Source: Phycicoccus flavus
Lineage (GTDB): Bacteria > Actinomycetota > Actinomycetes > Actinomycetales > Dermatophilaceae
Direction of reading: 5' to 3'
Assembly: GCF_004025965.2 (NCBI RefSeq)
Contig: NZ_SAYU02000001.1
Location: forward strand, 1 to 64,000
Length of the DNA stretch: 64,000 nt
This document shows positions 1,895 through 11,906 of the stretch, piece by piece. Within the stretch, counting starts at the first letter, position 1. Every line of letters begins with the position of its first letter. Below the pieces are notes generated by a model. That model worked only from the letters and a program-made list of their open reading frames with translations. It did not search any database and was not told the DNA's origin. Made by a program: the position numbers and the translations under genes.

Positions 1895-2974
1895 GTGCAC
1901 GTCGTGATCCTCGCCGCGTCCCGGCACCCGGTCGCCGAGCCCTTCGCCGGCGGCCTGGAGTCGCTGACCTGGCACCTCGTGCGTGGCCTGCGCGAGCACC
2001 GGGTCGACGTCACCGTCTTCGCCGGCGAGGGCACCGACCCCGGCCTCGGGGCCCGGATCCTGCGGACCAGCCCGCTGCGGCTCAGCGACGCCGCGCGGGC
2101 CGACGTGAGCATGGTCCCCGAGCCCTGGCTGCGCGAGCACCACGCCTACCTCCAGGTGATGCTCGAGCTCCAGCGCCGCGAGGACGTCGACGTGGTCCAC
2201 AACAACAGCCTCCACCACCTGCCCGTCGCCATGGCCGGGTCGGTCCCCGCCGCCGTCGTCACGACGCTGCACACCCCGCCGACGCCCTGGCTGGAGCCCG
2301 CCATCGCCATCGCCGAGGCCTCGCCCGGCCGGTCCTCACGGCACGTCGCCGTCAGCGAGCACACCGCCGAGACCTGGCGGCACGTCGCGCCCGTGCAGGT
2401 CGTGCGCAACGGCATCGACGTCGAGCGCTGGACCCCGGGACTCGGGGGTCCGGACCTCGCCTGGGGCGGACGGCTCGTCCCCGAGAAGGCGCCGCACGTC
2501 GCCATCGCCATGGCGCGGGCCGCCGGGCGGCGCCTGCGCCTCGCCGGACCGGTCGGCGACCCGGTGTACTTCGACCGGTTCGTCCGGCCCCAGCTCGGTG
2601 ACGACGTCGAGTACGTCGGCCACCTCGACACCGCCGGCCTGGCCGCGCTGTTCGGCTCCAGCGCCACGACCCTCGTGACGCCGGAGTGGGACGAGCCGTA
2701 CGGGCTCGTCGCCGCGGAGTCCCTCGCCTGCGGGACCCCCGTCGTCGCCCTGGCCCGCGGCGGCCTGCCCGAGGTGATCGACGCCACCTCCGGCGTGCTC
2801 CTCGACCCGCACGCCCCCGACCTGCTGGACCGCGCGGCCGACGCCGTCGCCGCCGCCCGGCGCCTCGACCGCCGCGCGTGCCGCGAGCGGGCGGTGCGCG
2901 AGTGCTCGGTGACCCGGATGGTGCGCGAGTACCTCGACCACTACGAGACCCTGAGCGCGGGGCTCGTCGCGTGA
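1895..2974 (+). CDS. Glycosyltransferase family 4 (GT-B)
   Basis: A 359-residue GT-B retaining glycosyltransferase, first gene of a six-gene operon. The GTG start at 1895 follows GGGAGG. The N-terminal Rossmann lobe begins with HVVILAASRHPVAEPFAGGLE, typical for acceptor-side glycine loops, and the donor site carries the EX7E pair Glu267/Glu275 in EPYGLVAAES. It is presumed to move a sugar from a nucleotide-sugar to a lipid or glycan acceptor on the cytoplasmic face of the membrane; donor and acceptor are unknown. Its stop overlaps the next start (GTGA). Confidence 0.85.
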   Translation: MHVVILAASRHPVAEPFAGGLESLTWHLVRGLREHRVDVTVFAGEGTDPGLGARILRTSPLRLSDAARADVSMVPEPWLREHHAYLQVMLELQRREDVDVVHNNSLHHLPVAMAGSVPAAVVTTLHTPPTPWLEPAIAIAEASPGRSSRHVAVSEHTAETWRHVAPVQVVRNGIDVERWTPGLGGPDLAWGGRLVPEKAPHVAIAMARAAGRRLRLAGPVGDPVYFDRFVRPQLGDDVEYVGHLDTAGLAALFGSSATTLVTPEWDEPYGLVAAESLACGTPVVALARGGLPEVIDATSGVLLDPHAPDLLDRAADAVAAARRLDRRACRERAVRECSVTRMVREYLDHYETLSAGLVA

Positions 2975-4017
2975 TCGGGTGGTACGTCCACCACCAGGGG
3001 CGCGGGCACGCGACCCGGGCCGCCGCCGTCGCCGCGCACCTGCGCCACCCCGTGACCGGCCTCGGGTCCGGTCCGCCGCCCGAGGGCTGGACGGGGCACT
3101 GGGTCGACCTCGAGCCCGACGACCTCGACCCCGCCCCGGCCGACGCCACCGCCCGCGGGGTGCTGCACCACGTCCCCCGGCGCGACGCCGGCCTCGCCGC
3201 CCGCTCGGCCCGGGTCGCCGCGTGGGCCGCCGCCGAACGGCCGGCCCTGCTCGTCGTCGACGTCTCGGTCGAGGTGACGCTGCTCGCGCGCCTGTGCGGC
3301 GTGCCCGTCGTCGTCGCCGTCCTGCCCGGCGACCGGTCCGACCCGGTGCACGCCCTGGCCCACGACGTCGCCGAGGCCCTGCTCGCCCCCTGGCCCGCCG
3401 GCACCCACGAGGTCGCCTGGCCGTCCGAATGGGCCGGCAAGGTCTGGACCGTCGGGGCGATGAGCCGCTTCGACGGCCGTCCCGTCCGCCCGCCCGCGCG
3501 CCGCGACGCCCCGCGCGTCCTCCTGCTCTGGGGCGCCGGCGGCCGGTCGACCACGGACGGGCAGGTGGCCGCCGCGCGGGCCGCGACCCCCGGCTGGGAG
3601 TGGACCGAGTGCAGCGACACCGGCCCCGAGGAGCTGTGGGAGTCCCTGCTCGACGCCGACGTCGTCGTCACCCACGGCGGGCAGAACGCCGTCGCCGAGG
3701 TCGCGGCCGCCCGGCGTCCGGCGGTCGTCGTCGCCCAGCCGCGGCCCTTCGACGAGCAGGCGTGGACCGCCCGGTGCGTCGACGCCCTGGGCCTCGCCGT
3801 CGGCCTGGCGGAGTGGCCGGACGCCGACGCCTGGCCGGCGCTGCTGGAGCGCGCCCGGACCCTCGGCGGTGCCGGCTGGGAGCGGTGGAGCCCCGGCGAC
3901 GCCGCGGCCGACGCGGCCCGGCGGCTCGACGCCATCGCCGACGACCTGGCCGACGAGCCGACCGACCACCCCACCGGGCGGACGGCCGCCCCGCGGCCCG
4001 ACCGGGTGCCGTTGTGA
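2971..4017 (+). CDS. MurG-like GT-B glycosyltransferase
   Basis: A 348-residue protein starting at GTG 2971, chosen because it overlaps the previous stop by four bases (GTGA); longer upstream readings overlap the GT4 gene. The N-terminus has HHQGRGHATR (residues 7-16), a glycine-rich acceptor loop as in MurG/GT28 and MGDG-synthase relatives. The C-terminal half has THGGQNAVAE around His235, the nucleotide-sugar site motif of that fold. It probably transfers a hexose or amino sugar in the same pathway as its neighbours. Confidence 0.75.
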   Translation: MIGWYVHHQGRGHATRAAAVAAHLRHPVTGLGSGPPPEGWTGHWVDLEPDDLDPAPADATARGVLHHVPRRDAGLAARSARVAAWAAAERPALLVVDVSVEVTLLARLCGVPVVVAVLPGDRSDPVHALAHDVAEALLAPWPAGTHEVAWPSEWAGKVWTVGAMSRFDGRPVRPPARRDAPRVLLLWGAGGRSTTDGQVAAARAATPGWEWTECSDTGPEELWESLLDADVVVTHGGQNAVAEVAAARRPAVVVAQPRPFDEQAWTARCVDALGLAVGLAEWPDADAWPALLERARTLGGAGWERWSPGDAAADAARRLDAIADDLADEPTDHPTGRTAAPRPDRVPL

Positions 4018-4901
4018 CCCCCCGGGTCGCCGTCGTGACGCCGGTGCACGGGCGGCACCGGCACCTCACCGGGCAGCGCTGGGGCCTGGCCCGCCAGACC
4101 CACGCCCCCGACGCGCACGTCGTCGTCGCCATGGGCGACCCCGACGTGACGGGCGTCCTCGCCGAGGCGCCGGACGGCCCGCCCGCCCACGTCGTCGACG
4201 TCGACCTCGTCGACGGCCGGCTGCCGCTGGCCGCCGCGCGCAACGCCGGCGTCCGTGAGGCCGCGCACCGGGGCGCCGAGGTCGTCGTCCTCCTCGACGT
4301 CGACTGCGTCCCGGCCCCCGACCTCGTCGCTGACTACCTCGCCGCGCTGGCGTCCGCCGCGGCGGAGGGTGACCCGCCGGTCTTCGCCTGCGGGGTGGTG
4401 CGCTACCTCGACGCCGCGACGACCGCGGCCGGCCCGGTCTGGGTCGACGACTCGGCGCTGGAGGCGGGCTCGACCCCGCACGCCGCCCGGCCCGCGCCGC
4501 CCGCCGGTGCGGTCGAGCGCGGCGGCGACGCCCGGCTGTTCTGGTCGCTGTCGTTCGCGGCGACGGTTACCGACTTCGAGCGGGTCGGCGGCTTCGACGA
4601 GGGCTACGTCGGCTACGGCGCCGAGGACACCGACGTCGGCCAGCGGCTCGAGGCGGCCGGTGGCAGCATCCTCTGGCTCGGCGGCGCCACCGCCTACCAC
4701 CAGCACCACGGCGACGGCGGCCTGCCCGTGCAGCACGTCCACGACATCGTCGCCAACGGCGGCCGCTTCGCCCGGCGCTGGGGCTGGTGGCCGATGGGCG
4801 GCTGGCTCGACGGGTTCGAGGACCTCGGGCTGGTCCGGCGCGACGGCGCGGGCGGCTGGGTCGCCACCGGCCCGGCCCGGCGGACGGCGGGGTCGCGGTG
4901 A
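4014..4901 (+). CDS. Glycosyltransferase family 2 with galactosyltransferase-type C-terminus
   Basis: A 295-residue GT-A enzyme starting at GTG 4014, overlapping the previous stop by four bases. The N-terminus VAVVTPVHGR is the GT2 nucleotide-binding strand. The metal-binding DXD is Asp95-Val-Asp97 in LLDVDCVP. GGFDEGYVGYGAEDTDVG (Glu204-Asp205) matches the C-terminal domain of galactosyltransferase-like GT7/GT2 proteins and supplies the catalytic acidic pair. No membrane segments are seen. It is an inverting transferase, third in the operon. Confidence 0.85.
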   Translation: MTPRVAVVTPVHGRHRHLTGQRWGLARQTHAPDAHVVVAMGDPDVTGVLAEAPDGPPAHVVDVDLVDGRLPLAAARNAGVREAAHRGAEVVVLLDVDCVPAPDLVADYLAALASAAAEGDPPVFACGVVRYLDAATTAAGPVWVDDSALEAGSTPHAARPAPPAGAVERGGDARLFWSLSFAATVTDFERVGGFDEGYVGYGAEDTDVGQRLEAAGGSILWLGGATAYHQHHGDGGLPVQHVHDIVANGGRFARRWGWWPMGGWLDGFEDLGLVRRDGAGGWVATGPARRTAGSR

Positions 4902-5920
4902 GCACCGTGTGGCGGGCCGCCGAGTGGGCCGAGCCGGACCCGCCCGCCGTCCCGGCGGGCCTGGGCCCCGCGCTCGACCTGGGCCGCCGGCTGGCGCCCG
5001 TCGCCCGGGACCTGCCCGCGGACCCGTGGCGCTACCTCGCGACGCTGGCCACGCTGGGGGCGGGCGACCTCGGCACCGCCCGGACGGTCGAGCCGCACCT
5101 GGACGCCGTCGCCGTCCTCGAGCAGGCCGGGCGCCCCGACCTGACGCCCCTCGGCGTCGACGAGGACAGCACATTCGGCGTCTACGCCGCCCGCGCCCCC
5201 GGCGCCGTCCTGCGGGCCACGCGCTCGAGCGGCACCGACGACACCGGCTGGCGGGTCTCCGGGCGCAAGGCCTGGTGCTCGCTGGCGCCGAGCCTCAGCC
5301 ACGCCCTCGTCACCGTCGACGAGGGCGAACGGCCCGGGCTGTACGCAGTGCCGCTGCGCCACGGCGGCGTCGCGCACGAGGCGGGGGACTGGGTCGCCCG
5401 CGGCCTGACCGCCGTCACCACCGGCGCGGTCGTCCTGGACGACGTGCCCGCCGTCCCGGTGGGGGAGCCCGGCTGGTACCTCGCGCGGCCCGGCTTCGCC
5501 TGGGGCGGCATCGGCGTCGCCGCGGTCTGGTTCGGCGGGGCCGCCGCGCTCGGCGGCCGGCTCGTGGACGCCGCCGGCCGCCGCCCCCCGGACCAGGTCG
5601 CGCTCCTCCACCTCGGCACCGCCGACCGCGGGCTGCACACCGCCCTGCTCGCCCTCCGGGACGCCGCCCGCGCCATCGGGGACGGGTCGGCCGACGGCCC
5701 GGCGGGGTCCCTGCTCGCCGCCCGGGTGCGGGCCGTCGTCGCGGGCGTCGCCGAGGAGGTGCTCACCGTCGTCGGGCACGGCCTCGGCCCCGCGCCGCTC
5801 ACCCACGACGACGAGCACGCCGGCCGGGTCGCCGACCTCACCGTCTACCTCCGCCAGCACCACGCCGAGCGCGACCTCGCCGCCCTCGGGTCGCTCGTGC
5901 TGGGGGACGACGACCGATGA
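4898..5920 (+). CDS. Acyl-CoA-dehydrogenase-like flavoprotein
   Basis: A 340-residue protein starting at GTG 4898 (GTGA overlap). The middle region, SGRKAWCSLAPSLSHALVTV then GLYAVPLR and TGAVVLDDVPA, fits the beta domain of acyl-CoA dehydrogenases, with a helical C-terminal domain. It is shorter than the usual 380-400 residues, and I could not identify the catalytic glutamate or a clear FAD-phosphate motif, so it may oxidise a non-CoA substrate or hydroxylate. In a glycan operon it could desaturate an acyl group or act on an amino sugar. Confidence 0.65.
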   Translation: MSTVWRAAEWAEPDPPAVPAGLGPALDLGRRLAPVARDLPADPWRYLATLATLGAGDLGTARTVEPHLDAVAVLEQAGRPDLTPLGVDEDSTFGVYAARAPGAVLRATRSSGTDDTGWRVSGRKAWCSLAPSLSHALVTVDEGERPGLYAVPLRHGGVAHEAGDWVARGLTAVTTGAVVLDDVPAVPVGEPGWYLARPGFAWGGIGVAAVWFGGAAALGGRLVDAAGRRPPDQVALLHLGTADRGLHTALLALRDAARAIGDGSADGPAGSLLAARVRAVVAGVAEEVLTVVGHGLGPAPLTHDDEHAGRVADLTVYLRQHHAERDLAALGSLVLGDDDR

Positions 5921-7302
5921 CGGCCCGCGTCCAGCCGCTCTTCCACCACAGCGACCCCGGCACCCCGGAGCCGGCCTGGCTGCTGGACCCGCGCTGGGCG
6001 GACGTCCCGCTCGTCGACGTCCCCGGGCTCGCGGACCGCTACGACGACGTGCTCGTCCTCGCCGCCCACCCCGACGACGAGTCGCTGGCCGTCGGCGGTC
6101 TCGTCGCCGCGGCGGCCCGGGCCGGCCTGCCCGTCCGGGTCCTCGTCGCGACCCGCGGCGAGGGCTCGCACCCGCACGCGACGGCCTGGACCCCGAGGCT
6201 GCTGGCCCAGGTCCGCCGGGCCGAGGCCACGCTGGCCGTCGGCCGGCTCGCCCCCGGGGCGCCGGTCGACCAGTTGGAGCTGCCGGACGGCGGGCTCGAG
6301 GCGGCCGAGGACGTCCTCGTGGCCGAGGTGGCCGGCCGCCGCGGCCCGCGCACCCTCGTCCTCGCCCCGTGGACCGGCGACGGCCACCCCGACCACGACG
6401 CCCTCGGCCGGGCGGCCGCCCGGGCGGTCGGCGACGGGTCGGGCCTCGCGCACTACCCGCTCTGGCTGTGGCACTGGGGCTCGCCGGACGAGCTGGACTG
6501 GTCCCGGGCCCACGTCGTCGAGCTCACGCCGGCCGACCTCGACGCCAAGGCCGGCGCCCTGGAGGCCTACCCCTCGCAGACCCGCCCGCTCGGCCCCGGC
6601 TCCGGGGACGAGGCCGTCCTCACCCCGCCCGTGCTGCGCCGGGCCGCCCGCGTCGTCGAGCTGCTCCTGGCCGCCGACGGCGTGCTGCCCGTGCGGCCCG
6701 CCCGCGCCGACGACACCGTGGCCGAGCCGTTCGACGCCATGTACGACGACGGCCCCGACCCGTGGGGCTTCCGCGGCTCGTTCTACGAGTCCCGCAAGCG
6801 CGACCTCACCGCGGCGCTGCTCGGCCGGGAGCGCTACCGCCGGGTCCTCGAGATCGGCTGCGCGGACGGCCTGCTCACCCGCCGGCTGGCCGGCCGCGCC
6901 GACGAGGTCGTCGCCGTCGACGTCAGCGCCCGGGCCCTGGAGCAGGCCCGCCGGGACGCGCCGGCCCACGTCGCCTGGGTCCGGGGCCGGGCGCCCGGGG
7001 CCGTGCCCGACGGCCCGTTCGACCTCGTCGTGGTGTCCGAGGTCGGCTACTTCCTCACCCCGGTGGAGCTGCTCGCGACCCTGCGCCGGGTGCACGCCGC
7101 CCTGGCGCCGGAGGGCGAGGTCGTGCTCGTCCACTGGCGGCACTCCACGGACGAGGTGCCGCTCGACGGGCCCACCGTGCACGCCCAGGCCGGCGCCGTC
7201 CTCGCCGACCTCGGCCACCGGGTGCGGCACGCCGACGCCGACGTGCTCGCCGACGTCTGGGGCGGGCCGGGGTCGGTGGCGGCCGCCGAGGGGCGCCGGT
7301 GA
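5917..7302 (+). CDS. Fused PIG-L N-deacetylase and NodS-like SAM methyltransferase
   Basis: A 461-residue two-domain enzyme with an ATGA overlap. Residues about 40-265 are a PIG-L/LmbE zinc deacetylase: AHPDDE at 50-55 (His51, Asp53, Asp54) and HPDH at 157-160 give the zinc ligands and base. Residues about 275-455 are a class I methyltransferase with LEIGCADG (311-318) as SAM loop and, just before it, PDPWGFRGSFYE (Asp281-Pro-Trp283), resembling the DPWxFxxSxYE signature of NodS, which N-methylates the amine of deacetylated chitin oligosaccharides. The fusion predicts removal of an N-acetyl group followed by methylation on one sugar. Substrate is inferred only. Confidence 0.8.
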   Translation: MTARVQPLFHHSDPGTPEPAWLLDPRWADVPLVDVPGLADRYDDVLVLAAHPDDESLAVGGLVAAAARAGLPVRVLVATRGEGSHPHATAWTPRLLAQVRRAEATLAVGRLAPGAPVDQLELPDGGLEAAEDVLVAEVAGRRGPRTLVLAPWTGDGHPDHDALGRAAARAVGDGSGLAHYPLWLWHWGSPDELDWSRAHVVELTPADLDAKAGALEAYPSQTRPLGPGSGDEAVLTPPVLRRAARVVELLLAADGVLPVRPARADDTVAEPFDAMYDDGPDPWGFRGSFYESRKRDLTAALLGRERYRRVLEIGCADGLLTRRLAGRADEVVAVDVSARALEQARRDAPAHVAWVRGRAPGAVPDGPFDLVVVSEVGYFLTPVELLATLRRVHAALAPEGEVVLVHWRHSTDEVPLDGPTVHAQAGAVLADLGHRVRHADADVLADVWGGPGSVAAAEGRR

Positions 7303-8036
7303 GCGCCGTCCGCCACGTCCTCGTCGTCGTGCCCGCGCGCGACGAGGAGCAGGTGCTCGGGCCGTGCCTGCGCAGCCTCGAGGTCGCCGCCGCGCGGCTG
7401 CGCCGGGCCCGGCCGGACGTCGCGGTCGACGTCGTCGTCGTCCTCGACGGGTGCGTCGACGGCTCGGCGGCCGTGACCGCGCGGTACCCGGTGACCGCGT
7501 TCCCCGTCCTCGCCGGGACGGTGGGGGCCGCGCGCCGGCTGGGGGTCCGCGGCGGTCTCGCCCTGCGCCCGGCCGACATCCCCAACGAGGCCGTCTGGAT
7601 CGCGAGCACGGACGCCGACTGCGAGGTCCCGCCGCACTGGCTGACCGAGCAGGTCGCGCTGGCCGAGGGCGGCGCCGACCTCGTGGTCGGCACCGTCGTC
7701 CCGGCCGGTGACCTCGACCCCGTCCGGCTCGCGGAGTGGCACTCCCGGCACGACCTGCGCGACGGCCACCCCTACGTGCACGGTGCCAACCTCGGGGTCC
7801 GGCTCACGGCCTACGCGGCGGCCGGGGGCTTCCGGCGGCTCGTCCGCCACGAGGACGTCGGGCTCGTGAGGCGCGTCCGGGCGCTCGGTCACCCGTGGGT
7901 CGCCACCGACCGGACCCGGGTGCGGACCTCGCCGCGGCTCCAGGGGCGGGTCGAGGGCGGGTTCGCCGGCTACCTCGCCGCCCTGCCCGGGACCGACCCC
8001 GCGCCCGCCCGGCGGGCCCGGACCCGCCGCCGCTGA
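7299..8036 (+). CDS. Glycosyltransferase family 2
   Basis: A 245-residue GT-A enzyme starting at GTG 7299 (GTGA overlap), last gene of the operon. HVLVVVPARDEEQ opens the nucleotide-binding fold, and the DXD is Asp105-Ala-Asp107 in STDADCE. YVHGANLGVR and HEDVGLVRR supply the usual acceptor and catalytic motifs of GT2 proteins of the glucosyl-3-phosphoglycerate-synthase-like type. It lacks transmembrane helices. Only 16 bases separate its stop from the convergent GntR gene. Confidence 0.8.
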   Translation: MSAVRHVLVVVPARDEEQVLGPCLRSLEVAAARLRRARPDVAVDVVVVLDGCVDGSAAVTARYPVTAFPVLAGTVGAARRLGVRGGLALRPADIPNEAVWIASTDADCEVPPHWLTEQVALAEGGADLVVGTVVPAGDLDPVRLAEWHSRHDLRDGHPYVHGANLGVRLTAYAAAGGFRRLVRHEDVGLVRRVRALGHPWVATDRTRVRTSPRLQGRVEGGFAGYLAALPGTDPAPARRARTRRR

Positions 8037-8052: not shown

Positions 8053-8781
8053 TCACCCCGACCCTGACGCCGGGTCCGTGGACGTCGGCGACGACCCGTC
8101 GACGACGCCCTCCATCGCGTCGCCGACCCACGCCTCGGTCCCCGCCACGTGGAGCAGCGCCCGGGTGCGGGCGGCCTCGGGGTCACGGTCGCGCAGCGCG
8201 AGCCAGATGCCCCGGTGCTCGGCGACCGTCCGCTCGACGGCGCCGGCCTCGGTGAGCCCACGCCAGACCCTCGCCCGCTGGGTCGGGGCGCTGAGGCCGT
8301 CGAGCACCGAGGCGAGCACGGGGTTTCCCGAAGCGGCCGCGATCCGGCGGTGGAAGGCGAGGTCCGCGGCGACGAGCTCCTCGGCACCGGTGTCCGGACC
8401 GACCGCCCGCAGGTCCCGTTCCAGGGCCGCGAGGTCGTCGTCGCCGATCCGGGCCGCCGCCAGCGCCGTCGCCGCGGGCTCGAGCATCCGGCGTACCTGC
8501 ACCAGATGGCGGACCGTGTCGTCACGGTGGAGGTCGACGATGAACTCCATCGCGCCCATGAGGAGCGCCGCGTCGAGGCTCGTCACGTAGGTGCCGTCCC
8601 CGCGTCGGACGTCGAGGACCCCCACGAGGGACAGCGCCCGGACCGCCTCGCGCAGGGAGTTGCGCGAGAGCCCCAGACGGTCGGCCAGGTCGGCCTCGCG
8701 GGGCAGCCGGTCGCCGGGGCGCAGGTCACCCTGGACGATCATCGCCTTGATGCGCAGGATCGCGTCGTCGGTCACGGCCAT
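8053..8781 (-). CDS. GntR-family (FadR subfamily) regulator, probably of the fucose genes
   Basis: A 242-residue repressor. A winged helix is at the N-terminus (LPREADLADRLGLSRNSLREAVR), then an all-helical FCD ligand domain with conserved Arg/His positions (LVAADLAFHRRIAAASGNPVL). I chose ATG 8781 because GGGAG lies 6 bases upstream; an upstream ATG at 8850 has no such site. It is last in the operon fucD-AKR-lactonase-GntR, 40 bases after the lactonase gene. It likely binds the inverted sites at 11935-12004 and responds to a sugar acid such as L-fuconate or its keto derivative. Confidence 0.85.
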   Translation of the reverse strand: MAVTDDAILRIKAMIVQGDLRPGDRLPREADLADRLGLSRNSLREAVRALSLVGVLDVRRGDGTYVTSLDAALLMGAMEFIVDLHRDDTVRHLVQVRRMLEPAATALAAARIGDDDLAALERDLRAVGPDTGAEELVAADLAFHRRIAAASGNPVLASVLDGLSAPTQRARVWRGLTEAGAVERTVAEHRGIWLALRDRDPEAARTRALLHVAGTEAWVGDAMEGVVDGSSPTSTDPASGSG

Positions 8782-8821
8782 GGCTTTCTCCCTCGGAGAG
8801 GTGGGGCGGCGGAGAAGGGTG

Positions 8822-9676
8822 TCACCGGTCCTGGACCGCCGGTCCCACACGGTAGGTCCGGGCGGCGGTGCGCCACCGCAGATCTTCCTGCTCGGACGGG
8901 GAGAGCCGGGCGACGAGCCCGTCGAGGACGTCCGCCGTCCCCGCGTACCCCGGCCCGGCGACCGTCACCGGCCAGTCGCTCCCGAGCATGAGGCGCTCGG
9001 GGCCGAAGAGCTCCAGCGCCACGTCGAGGACCGGCAGCAGGGCCTGTTCGCTCCACGCGAGCCCGGGTACGTACAGCCCCGAGACCTTGGCCACCGTGGT
9101 GCCCGTCCGGGCGACCGCGGCCAGCTGGCGCCGCCAGGCCGCCATGGCCTCGGGTCCGCCCGCGCGGGGCGGCTTCCCGAGGTGGTCGACGACCAGGCGC
9201 AGACCGTCGGTCCGCTGCGCGGCCCGGGCCGCGCCCGGCAGGAGCCGCGGGAATCCGTCGGGCACGTCGACCGCGAGGTCACGCCGGGCGAGGACGCGCA
9301 GCGTCTCCCGGACCGCCGCCCGGTCGAGCAGGTCCTCACGCGGGTCGTCGTGCAGGAGCTGGCGGGCCCCGCGCACCCGCGGGTCGGCGAGCGGCCCGTC
9401 CAGGGCCCCGTCCGCGAGGTCCGGACGCTCCAGGTCGACCCAGGCCACGACGCCCGCCACCCAGGAGTGGGTCCGCGCGGTCGCGAGCAGCCGCTCGTTC
9501 TCGCGTCCGTCGTCCGCGGCCTGGACGAGGAGGGCGAGGTCCACGCCGGCGGCCCGCAGCAGGGGCTCGGCGTCCGCCGCGGAGAAGGGAGCGTGCAGCG
9601 GCCCGTGCTCTGGACGCAGCCAGGGGTAGATGCCCTCGGCCGGGTCCCAGAGGTGGAGGTGGGCGTCGATCCTCAT
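8822..9676 (-). CDS. Amidohydrolase family protein, probable L-fuconolactonase
   Basis: A 284-residue TIM-barrel amidohydrolase (amidohydrolase 2 family). [12 protein letters not shown] gives the metal-binding HxH (His6, His8), VDHLGKPP a further histidine, and GSDWPV the conserved aspartate. Length and motifs match bacterial sugar-lactone hydrolases of the fucono-/rhamnono-lactonase group. Its ATG overlaps the stop of the aldo/keto reductase gene (ATGA), and with FucD next door the natural role is opening L-fucono-lactone to L-fuconate. A related 6-deoxysugar lactone is possible. Confidence 0.8.
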   Translation of the reverse strand: MRIDAHLHLWDPAEGIYPWLRPEHGPLHAPFSAADAEPLLRAAGVDLALLVQAADDGRENERLLATARTHSWVAGVVAWVDLERPDLADGALDGPLADPRVRGARQLLHDDPREDLLDRAAVRETLRVLARRDLAVDVPDGFPRLLPGAARAAQRTDGLRLVVDHLGKPPRAGGPEAMAAWRRQLAAVARTGTTVAKVSGLYVPGLAWSEQALLPVLDVALELFGPERLMLGSDWPVTVAGPGYAGTADVLDGLVARLSPSEQEDLRWRTAARTYRVGPAVQDR

Positions 9677-10626
9677 CGCGCCGGCCCGGGGTCCGGCTCG
9701 AGCTCCTCGAGTGCGGCCCAGAGGGCGGGGTCGATCGGGGCCGTCGCCCGGGCCACGCTCTGGCGGACCTGCTCCGGTGACCTCGCGCCGAGCACGACGG
9801 ACGCGACCCCGGGGCCCTGCGCCGCGAAGCGGAGGGCGGCCGTGGGCAGGTCGGTACCGTACCGGTGGCAGACCTCCGCCACCCGGCGGGCCCGCCGCAC
9901 GACGTCGGGACCGGCGGTCCGGTAGCCGTAGGTCCCGGCGACCTCGTCCGAGGCCAGCAGGCCGCTCGCGTACACGGACGCGACCGCCACCCGCACCCCG
10001 GCGCGGGAGCACCGGACCAGCTCACCTCGCGCGCTCCGGTCGAGCACCGTGTAGCGCCCCGCGACCATGACCTCGCCGACGCGGTCGTCCGCCGCTGCCG
10101 CGGCCATCTGGGCGACGGACTTGGTCCCGACGCCCAGCACGCCGACGGTCCCGGCCGCGTGCAGCGGAGCGAGCGCCGACAGCCCGGAGTGCAGCGCCCC
10201 GGGCGGGTCGGGCGACTCGTCCGGGTCGTGCAGGTACACCGCGTCCAGCCGGTCGGTCCCGAGCCGCTCCAGCGACTGCTCGACCGAGGCACGCACGCCC
10301 GCGTCCGAGAAGTCCCACCGGCGGGTGAGGGTGGAGGTGACGGCGAAGATGTCCGTGTCGGGGACCGCCCGCCCGTCGGGGCGCGGCACCAGCAGCCGGC
10401 CGACCTTCGTCGACACCCGGGCCCTCTCGCGCCCGACCGTGCCGAGGAACGCGCCGAGCCGCTGCTCCGCCAGCCCCAGGCCGTAGTGCGGCGCGGTGTC
10501 GAAGGAGCGGATGCCGCACTCCCAGGCGGCGTCGAGGACGGCCCGGGCCTGCGCGTCGGGCATCACCCGGAACAGGTTGCCCATCTCGGCGGTCCCCAGG
10601 GTGATGGACCCGACCTCGAGGGTCAC
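9673..10626 (-). CDS. Aldo/keto reductase, probable L-fucose 1-dehydrogenase
   Basis: A 317-residue AKR of the D-threo-aldose/L-fucose dehydrogenase and pyridoxal dehydrogenase type. The catalytic tetrad includes Asp43 and Tyr48 in FDTAPHYG, and Lys74 in STKVGR, with a histidine in YLHDPDE. The C-terminal [14 protein letters not shown] is the NAD(P) adenosine-binding segment. GTG 10626 overlaps the fucD stop by four bases. In this operon it should oxidise L-fucose (or D-arabinose/L-galactose-like sugars) at C1 to the lactone. Confidence 0.8.
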
Positions 10627-11906
10627 CGCGGTGTCCCCACCTCGTACGCCGCGATCGACGGCGCGAGCATCTCGGTGCCCGCCCCCGGACCGGACGGCGC
10701 GAGGTACCGGCCGCCGCGGACGACGACCGGCTCGGCGAAGTGCTCGTGGAGGTGGTCCACGTACTCGATCATCCGCCCCTCCAGCGTGCCGCTGACGGCG
10801 ACGACGTCGAACATCGACAGGTGCTGGACCGCCTCGCACAGGCCGACGCCCCCGGCGTGCGGGCAGACCCGGACGCCGAACCGCGCGGCGAGGAGGAGCA
10901 TGGCGATGTTCTCGTTGACGCCGGCCACCCGGGTGGCGTCGATCTGGAGAACCTGGACAGCGTCCGCCTGGAGGAACTGCTTGGCCATGACCCGCCCGCC
11001 CATGTGCTCGCCGCTGGCGACCGGGATCGGCGCGACCTCCCGGGCGATACGGGCGTGGCCGAGGACGTCGTCGGGGCTGGTCGGCTCCTCGACCCACGCC
11101 AGCGTGGGGTCCTCCAGGGCCCGGACCCACTCGACGGCCTCGTCGACGCCCCACCGCTGGTTGGCGTCGACGGCGATGGCCACCCCGTCCCCGACGGCCC
11201 GCCGGGCGATGGCCAGGCGCCGACGGTCGTCCGCGAGGTCGCTGCCGACCTTGAGCTTGATCTGCCGGAACCCCTCCGCGGCCGCCTCCGCCGCCAGCCG
11301 CTCGAGCTTGGCGTCGTCGTAGCCGAGCCAGCCCGGGGTCGTCGTGTAGGCCGGGTACCCCTCGCGCAGCAGCGTCGCCGTGCGCTCCTCGCGACCGGGG
11401 AGCGCCGTCCGGAGGATGTCGAGGGCGTCCTGCGGGGTGAGGGCGTCGGTCAGGTAGCGGAAGTCGACCAGGTCGACGAGCTCTTCCGGCGACAACGACG
11501 AGAGCAGAAGCCACAGCGGCAACCCCGCACGTTTGGCCCGCAGGTCCCACAGGGCGGTCACGACCGCCCCGATCGCCATGTGCATCACCCCCTTCTCGGG
11601 TCCCAGCCAGCGCAGCTGGGAGTCGTGGACCAGCCGCCGCCAGGTCTCCCCCAGGTCGCCGAGCACGGACTCGACCTCCCGTCCCACGAGCATCCCCTCG
11701 AGGAGGCGGACGGCTGCCACCTGCACGTCGTTGCCGCGGCCGATCGTGAAGACGAAGCCGTGGCCGTCGGGCCCGTCGTCGTCGGTGACGATGCGCAGGT
11801 AGGCGGCCGAGTAGTCCGGGTCCGGGTTCATCGCGTCCGAGCCGTCGAGCAGGGTGGAGGTGGGGAACCGCACGTCGTGGGTGCGGAAGGCGGTGATCGT
11901 GCTCAT
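10623..11906 (-). CDS. fucD: L-fuconate dehydratase
   Basis: A 427-residue enolase-superfamily dehydratase. The KxK motif is Lys217-Leu-Lys219 in RQIKLKVG; magnesium ligands are Asp247 (VDANQ), Glu273 or Glu274 (WVEEP) and Glu300 (SGEH); His350 (CPHAGGVG) is the partner acid/base. This layout and the N-terminal [25 protein letters not shown] match L-fuconate dehydratases. It converts L-fuconate to 2-keto-3-deoxy-L-fuconate. It is the first gene of the leftward operon, with GGA four bases upstream of ATG 11906. Confidence 0.93.

Follow-up and report, generated by a model that had tools for sequence, protein, structure and literature searches.

The six-gene glycan operon of Phycicoccus flavus comprises a conserved core, with a PIG-L deacetylase fused to a NodS-like methyltransferase, and an add-on glycosyltransferase module

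Introduction

What is made by an operon that places four glycosyltransferases (GTs) beside a fused deacetylase and methyltransferase and a protein annotated as an acyl-CoA dehydrogenase (ACAD)? This question is raised by six genes, named A to F here (Table 1), on the + strand at positions 1895-8036 of a 64,000-nucleotide stretch of the Phycicoccus flavus genome (contig NZ_SAYU02000001.1, positions 1 to 64,000; the window). The original prediction, made from the sequence, took the four-base overlaps between the genes as a sign that they act as one pathway and proposed an actinobacterial glycolipid or glycan with an N-methylated, possibly acyl-modified amino sugar. The overlaps were confirmed, as each of the five junctions is an overlap of exactly four bases; by themselves they speak for co-translation and not for a single pathway, and the pathway claim was therefore tested by co-conservation. 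On balance, and with moderate confidence, we favour a stress-associated pathway, conserved and passed on horizontally, for a glycoconjugate in which an amino sugar has lost its N-acetyl group and is N-methylated.

Genes D, E and F form a core to which A, B and C are added

The operon consists of two modules, a core of D, E and F and an add-on of the three GT genes A, B and C. Among 297 genomes of the order, D was found in 85 and E in 87, with both present in 84, and in 83 of these 84 the two genes lay less than 1 kb apart, the exception (G014) having them on two different contigs. Three genomes had E without D, the matches being to its methyltransferase part, and one had D without E. In a sample of the phylum D was present in 50 of 396 genomes. 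Scanning named genomes with a D profile revealed at least 579 that encode relatives; at the best 80 loci, the ones analysed, tblastn queries matched E at 78 and F at 74, and A, B and C at 9, 7 and 7.

The placement of the add-on module varied. In L040 (Phycicoccus) and L041 (Nostocoides) it stands ahead of the core; these are two of the top five named loci, L040-L044, which comprise four Phycicoccus and one Nostocoides and have a D 68-73% identical to that of the window. It comes after the core in L045 (Knoellia) and L048 (Marihabitans), whereas L064 (Microbacteriaceae) and L101 (Nocardioides) have it on the opposite strand a few kilobases away, and two Mycobacterium loci show the order D-E-F-A. 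B was detected in 60 of the order genomes, 46 with E and 14 without it (odds ratio of co-occurrence 15.7 across the 297 genomes, a statistic that ignores phylogeny), and in 14 genomes, all of the window's family, no more than 10 kb separated it from E. We therefore rejected an indivisible six-gene pathway, since A-B-C is missing or unlinked in most genomes that have D-E-F. The one-pathway claim is supported in part: D-E-F stays together, and A-B-C is beside the core in a minority of genomes only.

On Rhodococcus plasmid pRhX5 (L245:5943-10021) a GT1 gene is followed directly by homologues of A (51% identical), B (42%) and also C (49%), and D, E and F had no match in that stretch. L091 (Stenotrophomonas) and L103 (a Nitrococcus metagenome-assembled genome), both titled gammaproteobacteria, have a D 54% and 47% identical to that of the window; they are possibly contaminant actinobacterial contigs.

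The gene set occurs on plasmids and in other phyla

The restriction to actinobacteria that had been proposed did not stand, as the gene set is also present in Proteobacteria and Deinococcota. We surveyed 19 annotated plasmid records with a methyltransferase of the type found in this gene cassette, hand-picked from search match lists, and found the D, PIG-L and methyltransferase genes in a single run in 15 of them (the other four are L035, L036, L037 and L039). Ten additional records, those of five NodS proteins and L241, L244, L245, L258 and L259, served other comparisons and are not counted among the 19. Novosphingobium plasmid L243 carries in one run A, an F-like GT2 gene, B, D, PIG-L, the methyltransferase gene and C, which over the matched parts are 47, 33, 35, 29, 45, 38 and 39% identical to the window proteins, with E-values, in the same order, of 1e-86, 1e-9, 5e-34, 2e-9, 1e-5 (PIG-L part), 1e-25 and 1e-35. 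The arrangement is alike in Novosphingobium L242, where the F match is weak (25%, E 2e-4), and in Sphingobium L234, where it is also weak (24%, E 1.5e-4), B is annotated as two pieces, and D was found by the profile (79.9 bits) but not with the single window sequence. All three plasmids were typed as conjugative. In the Sphingobium and Novosphingobium plasmid operons generally, A homologues are 47% and C homologues 39-44% identical.

In the Comamonas antarctica plasmid (L120:6544-11540), a set of D, PIG-L, methyltransferase and GT genes that touch or overlap is enclosed by otsA and otsB. In two Deinococcus records (L039:2172-4511 and L235:2881-5229) D is the C-terminal portion of a larger protein; the N-terminal portion looks glycosidase-like by eye and, in L039, the one scanned, had no Pfam match. 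The gene glf adjoins two Deinococcus versions. Several phyla thus share a mobile core, which comprises three to four genes.

Gene E joins a PIG-L deacetylase to a methyltransferase related to NodS

The predicted fusion in E was borne out. The motifs AHPDDE, HPDH and DPWGFRGSFYE are all present, and the N-terminal half belongs to the PIG-L family at 76.7 bits, against a Pfam cut-off of 28.2. Residues H51, D53, D54, H157 and H160, which we take to be the ligands of the zinc site, are invariant across 18 sequences, and a PIG-L profile matched TT1542, diacetylchitobiose deacetylase and MshB in the PDB.

For the methyltransferase half, a methyltransferase profile run against the PDB matched 4isc, an unnamed methyltransferase, at 218 bits, then NodS, the top-ranked named methyltransferase, at 110 bits and phosphoethanolamine N-methyltransferases at 72. 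Scored with the cassette profile, five NodS proteins reached 106.7-111.8 bits versus 30.9-52.6 for ten other methyltransferases. In a tree of 46 rows the five NodS proteins from nod clusters formed a clade of their own (support 100/99) without any cassette methyltransferase, and this clade joined the cassette methyltransferases against the ten others (group branch 74/93); placing NodS within them or as their sister made no difference in the approximately unbiased (AU) test (p 0.466). E falls far below the NCBIfam equivalog cut-off for NodS, at 58.3 versus 300 bits. As judged from sequence, NodS is thus the closest of the named methyltransferases to that of E, which is not itself a NodS; the predicted likeness stands, and membership in the family does not. 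Two outcomes had been named beforehand as fatal to the original prediction, a methyltransferase no closer to NodS than to others and neighbours that part company. Neither was obtained, because NodS outranks the other named methyltransferases and the neighbours stay together across genomes and phyla, albeit as two modules with A-B-C mostly unlinked or absent.

Gene D encodes an ACAD-fold protein that lacks the catalytic glutamate

D had been described as acyl-CoA-dehydrogenase-like. Its AlphaFold model (predicted local distance difference test score 94.8) has the overall ACAD fold, with VIA-align Z scores of 29-31 across 308-329 residues in the best 50 rows, and 61 of 66 D members have a match to the middle domain of ACADs in Pfam. 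The fold does not decide the class of D, since VIA-align lists ordinary ACADs first in rows nearly tied near Z 30. The top Foldseek rows mix nitrososynthases, monooxygenases and ACADs, with KijD3 and DnmZ among the first eight. In NCBIfam, SfnB, presumably an ACAD-fold flavin monooxygenase, was the commonest match, found at E<=0.01 for 12 of 21 D members, with DszC once and enzymes acting on CoA or carrier proteins five times; the window D itself matched SfnB at 12.9 bits (E 0.037, cut-off 430.9).

Importantly, the column that holds the ACAD catalytic Glu, which we take to be the base without which dehydrogenation stops, is occupied by Gln in all 84 aligned D sequences, including Gln320 of the window. 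The alignment contained 65 of the 74 called named D proteins, the gene caller having given no D-family gene at 6 of the 80 loci. Most of the 84 sequences, 80 in number, have the motif DLxx(Y/F)xRQ, and the nine D proteins left out, several of them short, likewise carry the RQ motif. As controls we used ACADs of the same genome, of which eight of ten were counted (L262 and L264, shortened loci in the wrong frame, were excluded): six have Glu in the column and the others Ala and Asp, the one with Ala having Glu at the alternative helix-G position. At that position D has Gly in 82 and Asp in 2 of the 84 sequences. The same column holds Thr in a plasmid protein annotated acdA and His in two SfnB proteins. 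D as an ordinary ACAD was rejected on the strength of this Gln, and D is probably no acyl-CoA dehydrogenase. Ordinary acyl chemistry by D appears unlikely because the catalytic Glu is replaced throughout, and the acyl modification that had been suggested is likewise unlikely, with no acyltransferase recognised among the six genes.

This result bears on the proposal that the operon builds a glycolipid of the cell surface, or a glycan for export, whose amino sugar is N-methylated and acyl-modified, D supplying or modifying the acyl group. Four GTs within one operon, the glf gene beside two Deinococcus versions, the dehydrogenase-type proteins that lead the PDB matches of the D profile, and an Acinetobacter baumannii region which, in a passage of PMC5340874, may bear on cell-surface structure would all suit such a product, but Gln stands at the catalytic position in every aligned D, Pfam recognised no acyltransferase, flippase or polymerase among the six genes, and a purely actinobacterial version disagrees with the occurrence of the gene set elsewhere; we consider this proposal unlikely, though deserving of some weight. 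Rather improbable, in our estimate, is a specialised metabolite with an N-oxygenated sugar, in which D would act like the nitrososynthases KijD3 and DnmZ. The prominence of these two in Foldseek and of SfnB, with DszC, in NCBIfam is offset by the ordinary ACADs that come first in the nearly tied VIA-align rows, by the dehydrogenase-type lead among profile matches and the five CoA or carrier-protein assignments, and by a core in which Pfam recognised neither sugar-nucleotide genes nor genes for resistance or export.

Stress genes are neighbours of the core in some genomes

A setting among stress genes, like the plasmid copies, was no part of the original prediction. On chromosomes we compared 20 D segments with 59 fixed-place segments of the same 20 genomes, alongside the 80 named loci; the two D sets can share genomes, and the comparison ignores relatedness. 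At least one gene of a stress panel, made up of families from plasmid neighbours and of families chosen after the D loci had been seen, was present in 8/20 D segments versus 3/59 controls, and in 37/80 named loci. When the Zn alcohol dehydrogenase was left out of the panel, the counts were 8/20, 1/59 and 28/80. With p-values uncorrected for the number of families or for relatedness, KatE-type catalase was found in 5/20 D segments versus 0/59 controls (p 0.0007) and in 6/80 loci (p 0.033), and Dps in 15/80 loci versus 0/59 controls (p 0.00014) and in 2/20 segments (p 0.062). Hsp20 was matched in 8/80, 0/20 and 1/59. The OtsA and DUF421 queries had one match each, that of OtsA being the sole trehalose-gene match and lying in the 20 D segments. 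Of the 19 plasmid records, 8 contain a gene for catalase or for trehalose synthesis (otsA, otsB or treZ), counted in 6-8 kb flanks with no plasmid control set. We conclude that some of the genomes have stress genes, mainly those for catalase and Dps, close to the core more often than expected from the controls.

A related operon is affected in A. baumannii. ACICU_02432-02435, as given in an excerpt of PMC5660220, combines a GT, a methyltransferase, an LmbE protein (PIG-L type) and an ACAD-related gene, and differs from the window in that deacetylase and methyltransferase are separate genes. A table in the same source covers two colistin-dependent mutants and lists 33 genes with lowered expression; these GT, methyltransferase, LmbE and ACAD genes, down 31- to 62-fold, are among them, as are otsA, otsB and catalase. 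This single data set shows co-regulation and not function. The next locus number, ACICU_02436, encodes a DUF2171 protein according to part of PMC6330354, and a gene for a DUF2171 protein also neighbours the plasmid copy in L032.

A proposed pathway and its known counterparts

We infer substrate, methylated atom, reaction of D, product and role as follows. F would attach an N-acetylhexosamine, the PIG-L half of E would take off its acetyl group, and the NodS-like half would methylate the freed amine within the same polypeptide. D may then perform a further redox step on the product, oxygenation being our best guess, and where A, B and C are present they might lengthen the chain or cap it. Since a sizeable share of the genomes has abiotic-stress genes close to D-E-F, the product probably helps cells to survive oxidative stress, osmotic stress or drying.

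Several observations weigh against this proposal. The PDB match list of the methyltransferase profile also contains O-methyltransferases, and the N-methylation is predicted from similarity. The best PDB matches of the D profile are of dehydrogenase type (ColB1 at 36.3 bits and the caffeyl-CoA reductase CarC at 32.5), with monooxygenases after them. Phycicoccus loci L042-L044 have no A-B-C within the stretch, and B is far from E in 32 of the 46 genomes that carry both. A D relative with the RQ motif (105 bits) occurs on Methylobacterium plasmid pB (L244:7887-9053), and no PIG-L or methyltransferase gene is annotated near it in the 17-kb stretch. As to stress, part of the panel was picked after the fact, as described above, and its plasmid-derived part alone gives 7/80, 6/20 and 0/59 (controls); queries for OtsB, TreZ, spore photoproduct lyase, PRC, ferritin and CsbD matched nothing in any set, and 12 of the 20 D segments lack any panel gene. 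Six genes that flank the operon in the window were scanned and none was recognised as a stress gene, and stress-sigma-type promoter patterns were not enriched upstream of D (strict SigB/F pattern 0/56 versus 1/671).

Known systems resemble the operon in part. In rhizobial nodBCS, a GT, an N-deacetylase and an S-adenosylmethionine (SAM)-dependent methyltransferase act together on an amino sugar. The operon is predicted to have the same three activities, with NodS the nearest named relative of its methyltransferase; unlike nodBCS it has a PIG-L and not a NodB-type deacetylase, a short GT2 and not NodC, and no NodA, it adds an ACAD-fold protein, and the cassette methyltransferases average 24-25% identity to NodS. 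D shares the ACAD fold with class D flavin monooxygenases and nitrososynthases (SfnB, DszC, KijD3, DnmZ), and the two aligned SfnB proteins also lack the Glu, but they have His where D has Gln320, and the window D reaches no family cut-off. Mycothiol and bacillithiol synthesis (MshA-MshB, BshA-BshB) consists of a GT step followed by a PIG-L deacetylase, an order of activities that the operon would repeat while adding a methyltransferase and an ACAD-fold protein and lacking a cysteine ligase. That the operon makes a small soluble amino-sugar compound of this type as a redox buffer has little probability in our view, for although E has a match of 52.4 bits to BshB1 and a weak one of 23.8 bits to MshB, catalase genes are neighbours, and an N-methylated bacillithiol exists, with the methyl on its cysteine (excerpt of PMC12719100), no cysteine ligase of the MshC or BshC kind was found among the six genes, the rest of the genome not having been searched for one, and thiol-pathway models score far under their cut-offs.

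A stronger version of the stress-associated glycoconjugate pathway that we prefer can be put forward. It would be a plasmid-carried general stress pathway of several phyla making an N-methylated and N-oxygenated amino-sugar protectant, with D a new Gln320 class of the ACAD fold and rhizobial NodS a descendant of this older pathway; we think it improbable as a whole. Among the matches listed in the open-licence literature, which leaves subscription papers mostly outside coverage, we found no described product of the gene set. Its genes have stayed together in Micrococcales, sphingomonads, Acinetobacter and Deinococcus, plasmids often carry them, and in many genomes stress genes are close by, all of which points to an overlooked molecule. 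The operon offers exact candidates for knock-out and metabolomics and supplies non-rhizobial relatives of NodS, and our analysis suggests that the ACAD annotation of D-type proteins is misleading.

Layout and surroundings of the operon

All six genes have a third-position G+C of 0.976-0.996. The domain calls of the original prediction were upheld by Pfam, with weaker support for B and D than for the others: A matches GT4 (59.3 bits) and GT1 (55.9), B the GT28 C-terminal domain as its sole match (24.4), C Glyco_transf_7C (39.8), D Acyl-CoA_dh_M at 22.3 bits, under the cut-off of 33.3, and F GT2 (39.1), and the methyltransferase half of E matches Methyltransf_25 (54.5) and NodS (52.3).

Table 1. 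Genes of the operon, with positions in the window
Gene	Position	Strand	Start codon, length	Assignment	Module	Basis
A	1895..2974	+	GTG, 359 aa	GT4-family glycosyltransferase	add-on	Pfam GT4/GT1
B	2971..4017	+	GTG, 348 aa	MurG/GT28-like glycosyltransferase	add-on	Pfam GT28 C-terminal
C	4014..4901	+	GTG, 295 aa	GT2/galactosyltransferase-related glycosyltransferase	add-on	Pfam Glyco_transf_7C
D	4898..5920	+	GTG, 340 aa	ACAD-fold protein with Gln320 in place of the catalytic Glu	core	model, fold matches, alignment
E	5917..7302	+	ATG, 461 aa	PIG-L deacetylase (residues ~46-170) fused to NodS-like methyltransferase (~280-406)	core	Pfam, PDB profiles
F	7299..8036	+	GTG, 245 aa	short GT2 glycosyltransferase	core	Pfam GT2; match at 74/80 D loci

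Downstream, on the - strand (8053-11906), genes for a GntR/FCD regulator, an amidohydrolase, an aldo/keto reductase and enolase-superfamily proteins resemble a sugar-acid catabolic group that is separate from the operon. At the other end, positions 1-537 of the - strand encode a secreted-looking protein with near-identical internal repeats, which runs past the window edge.

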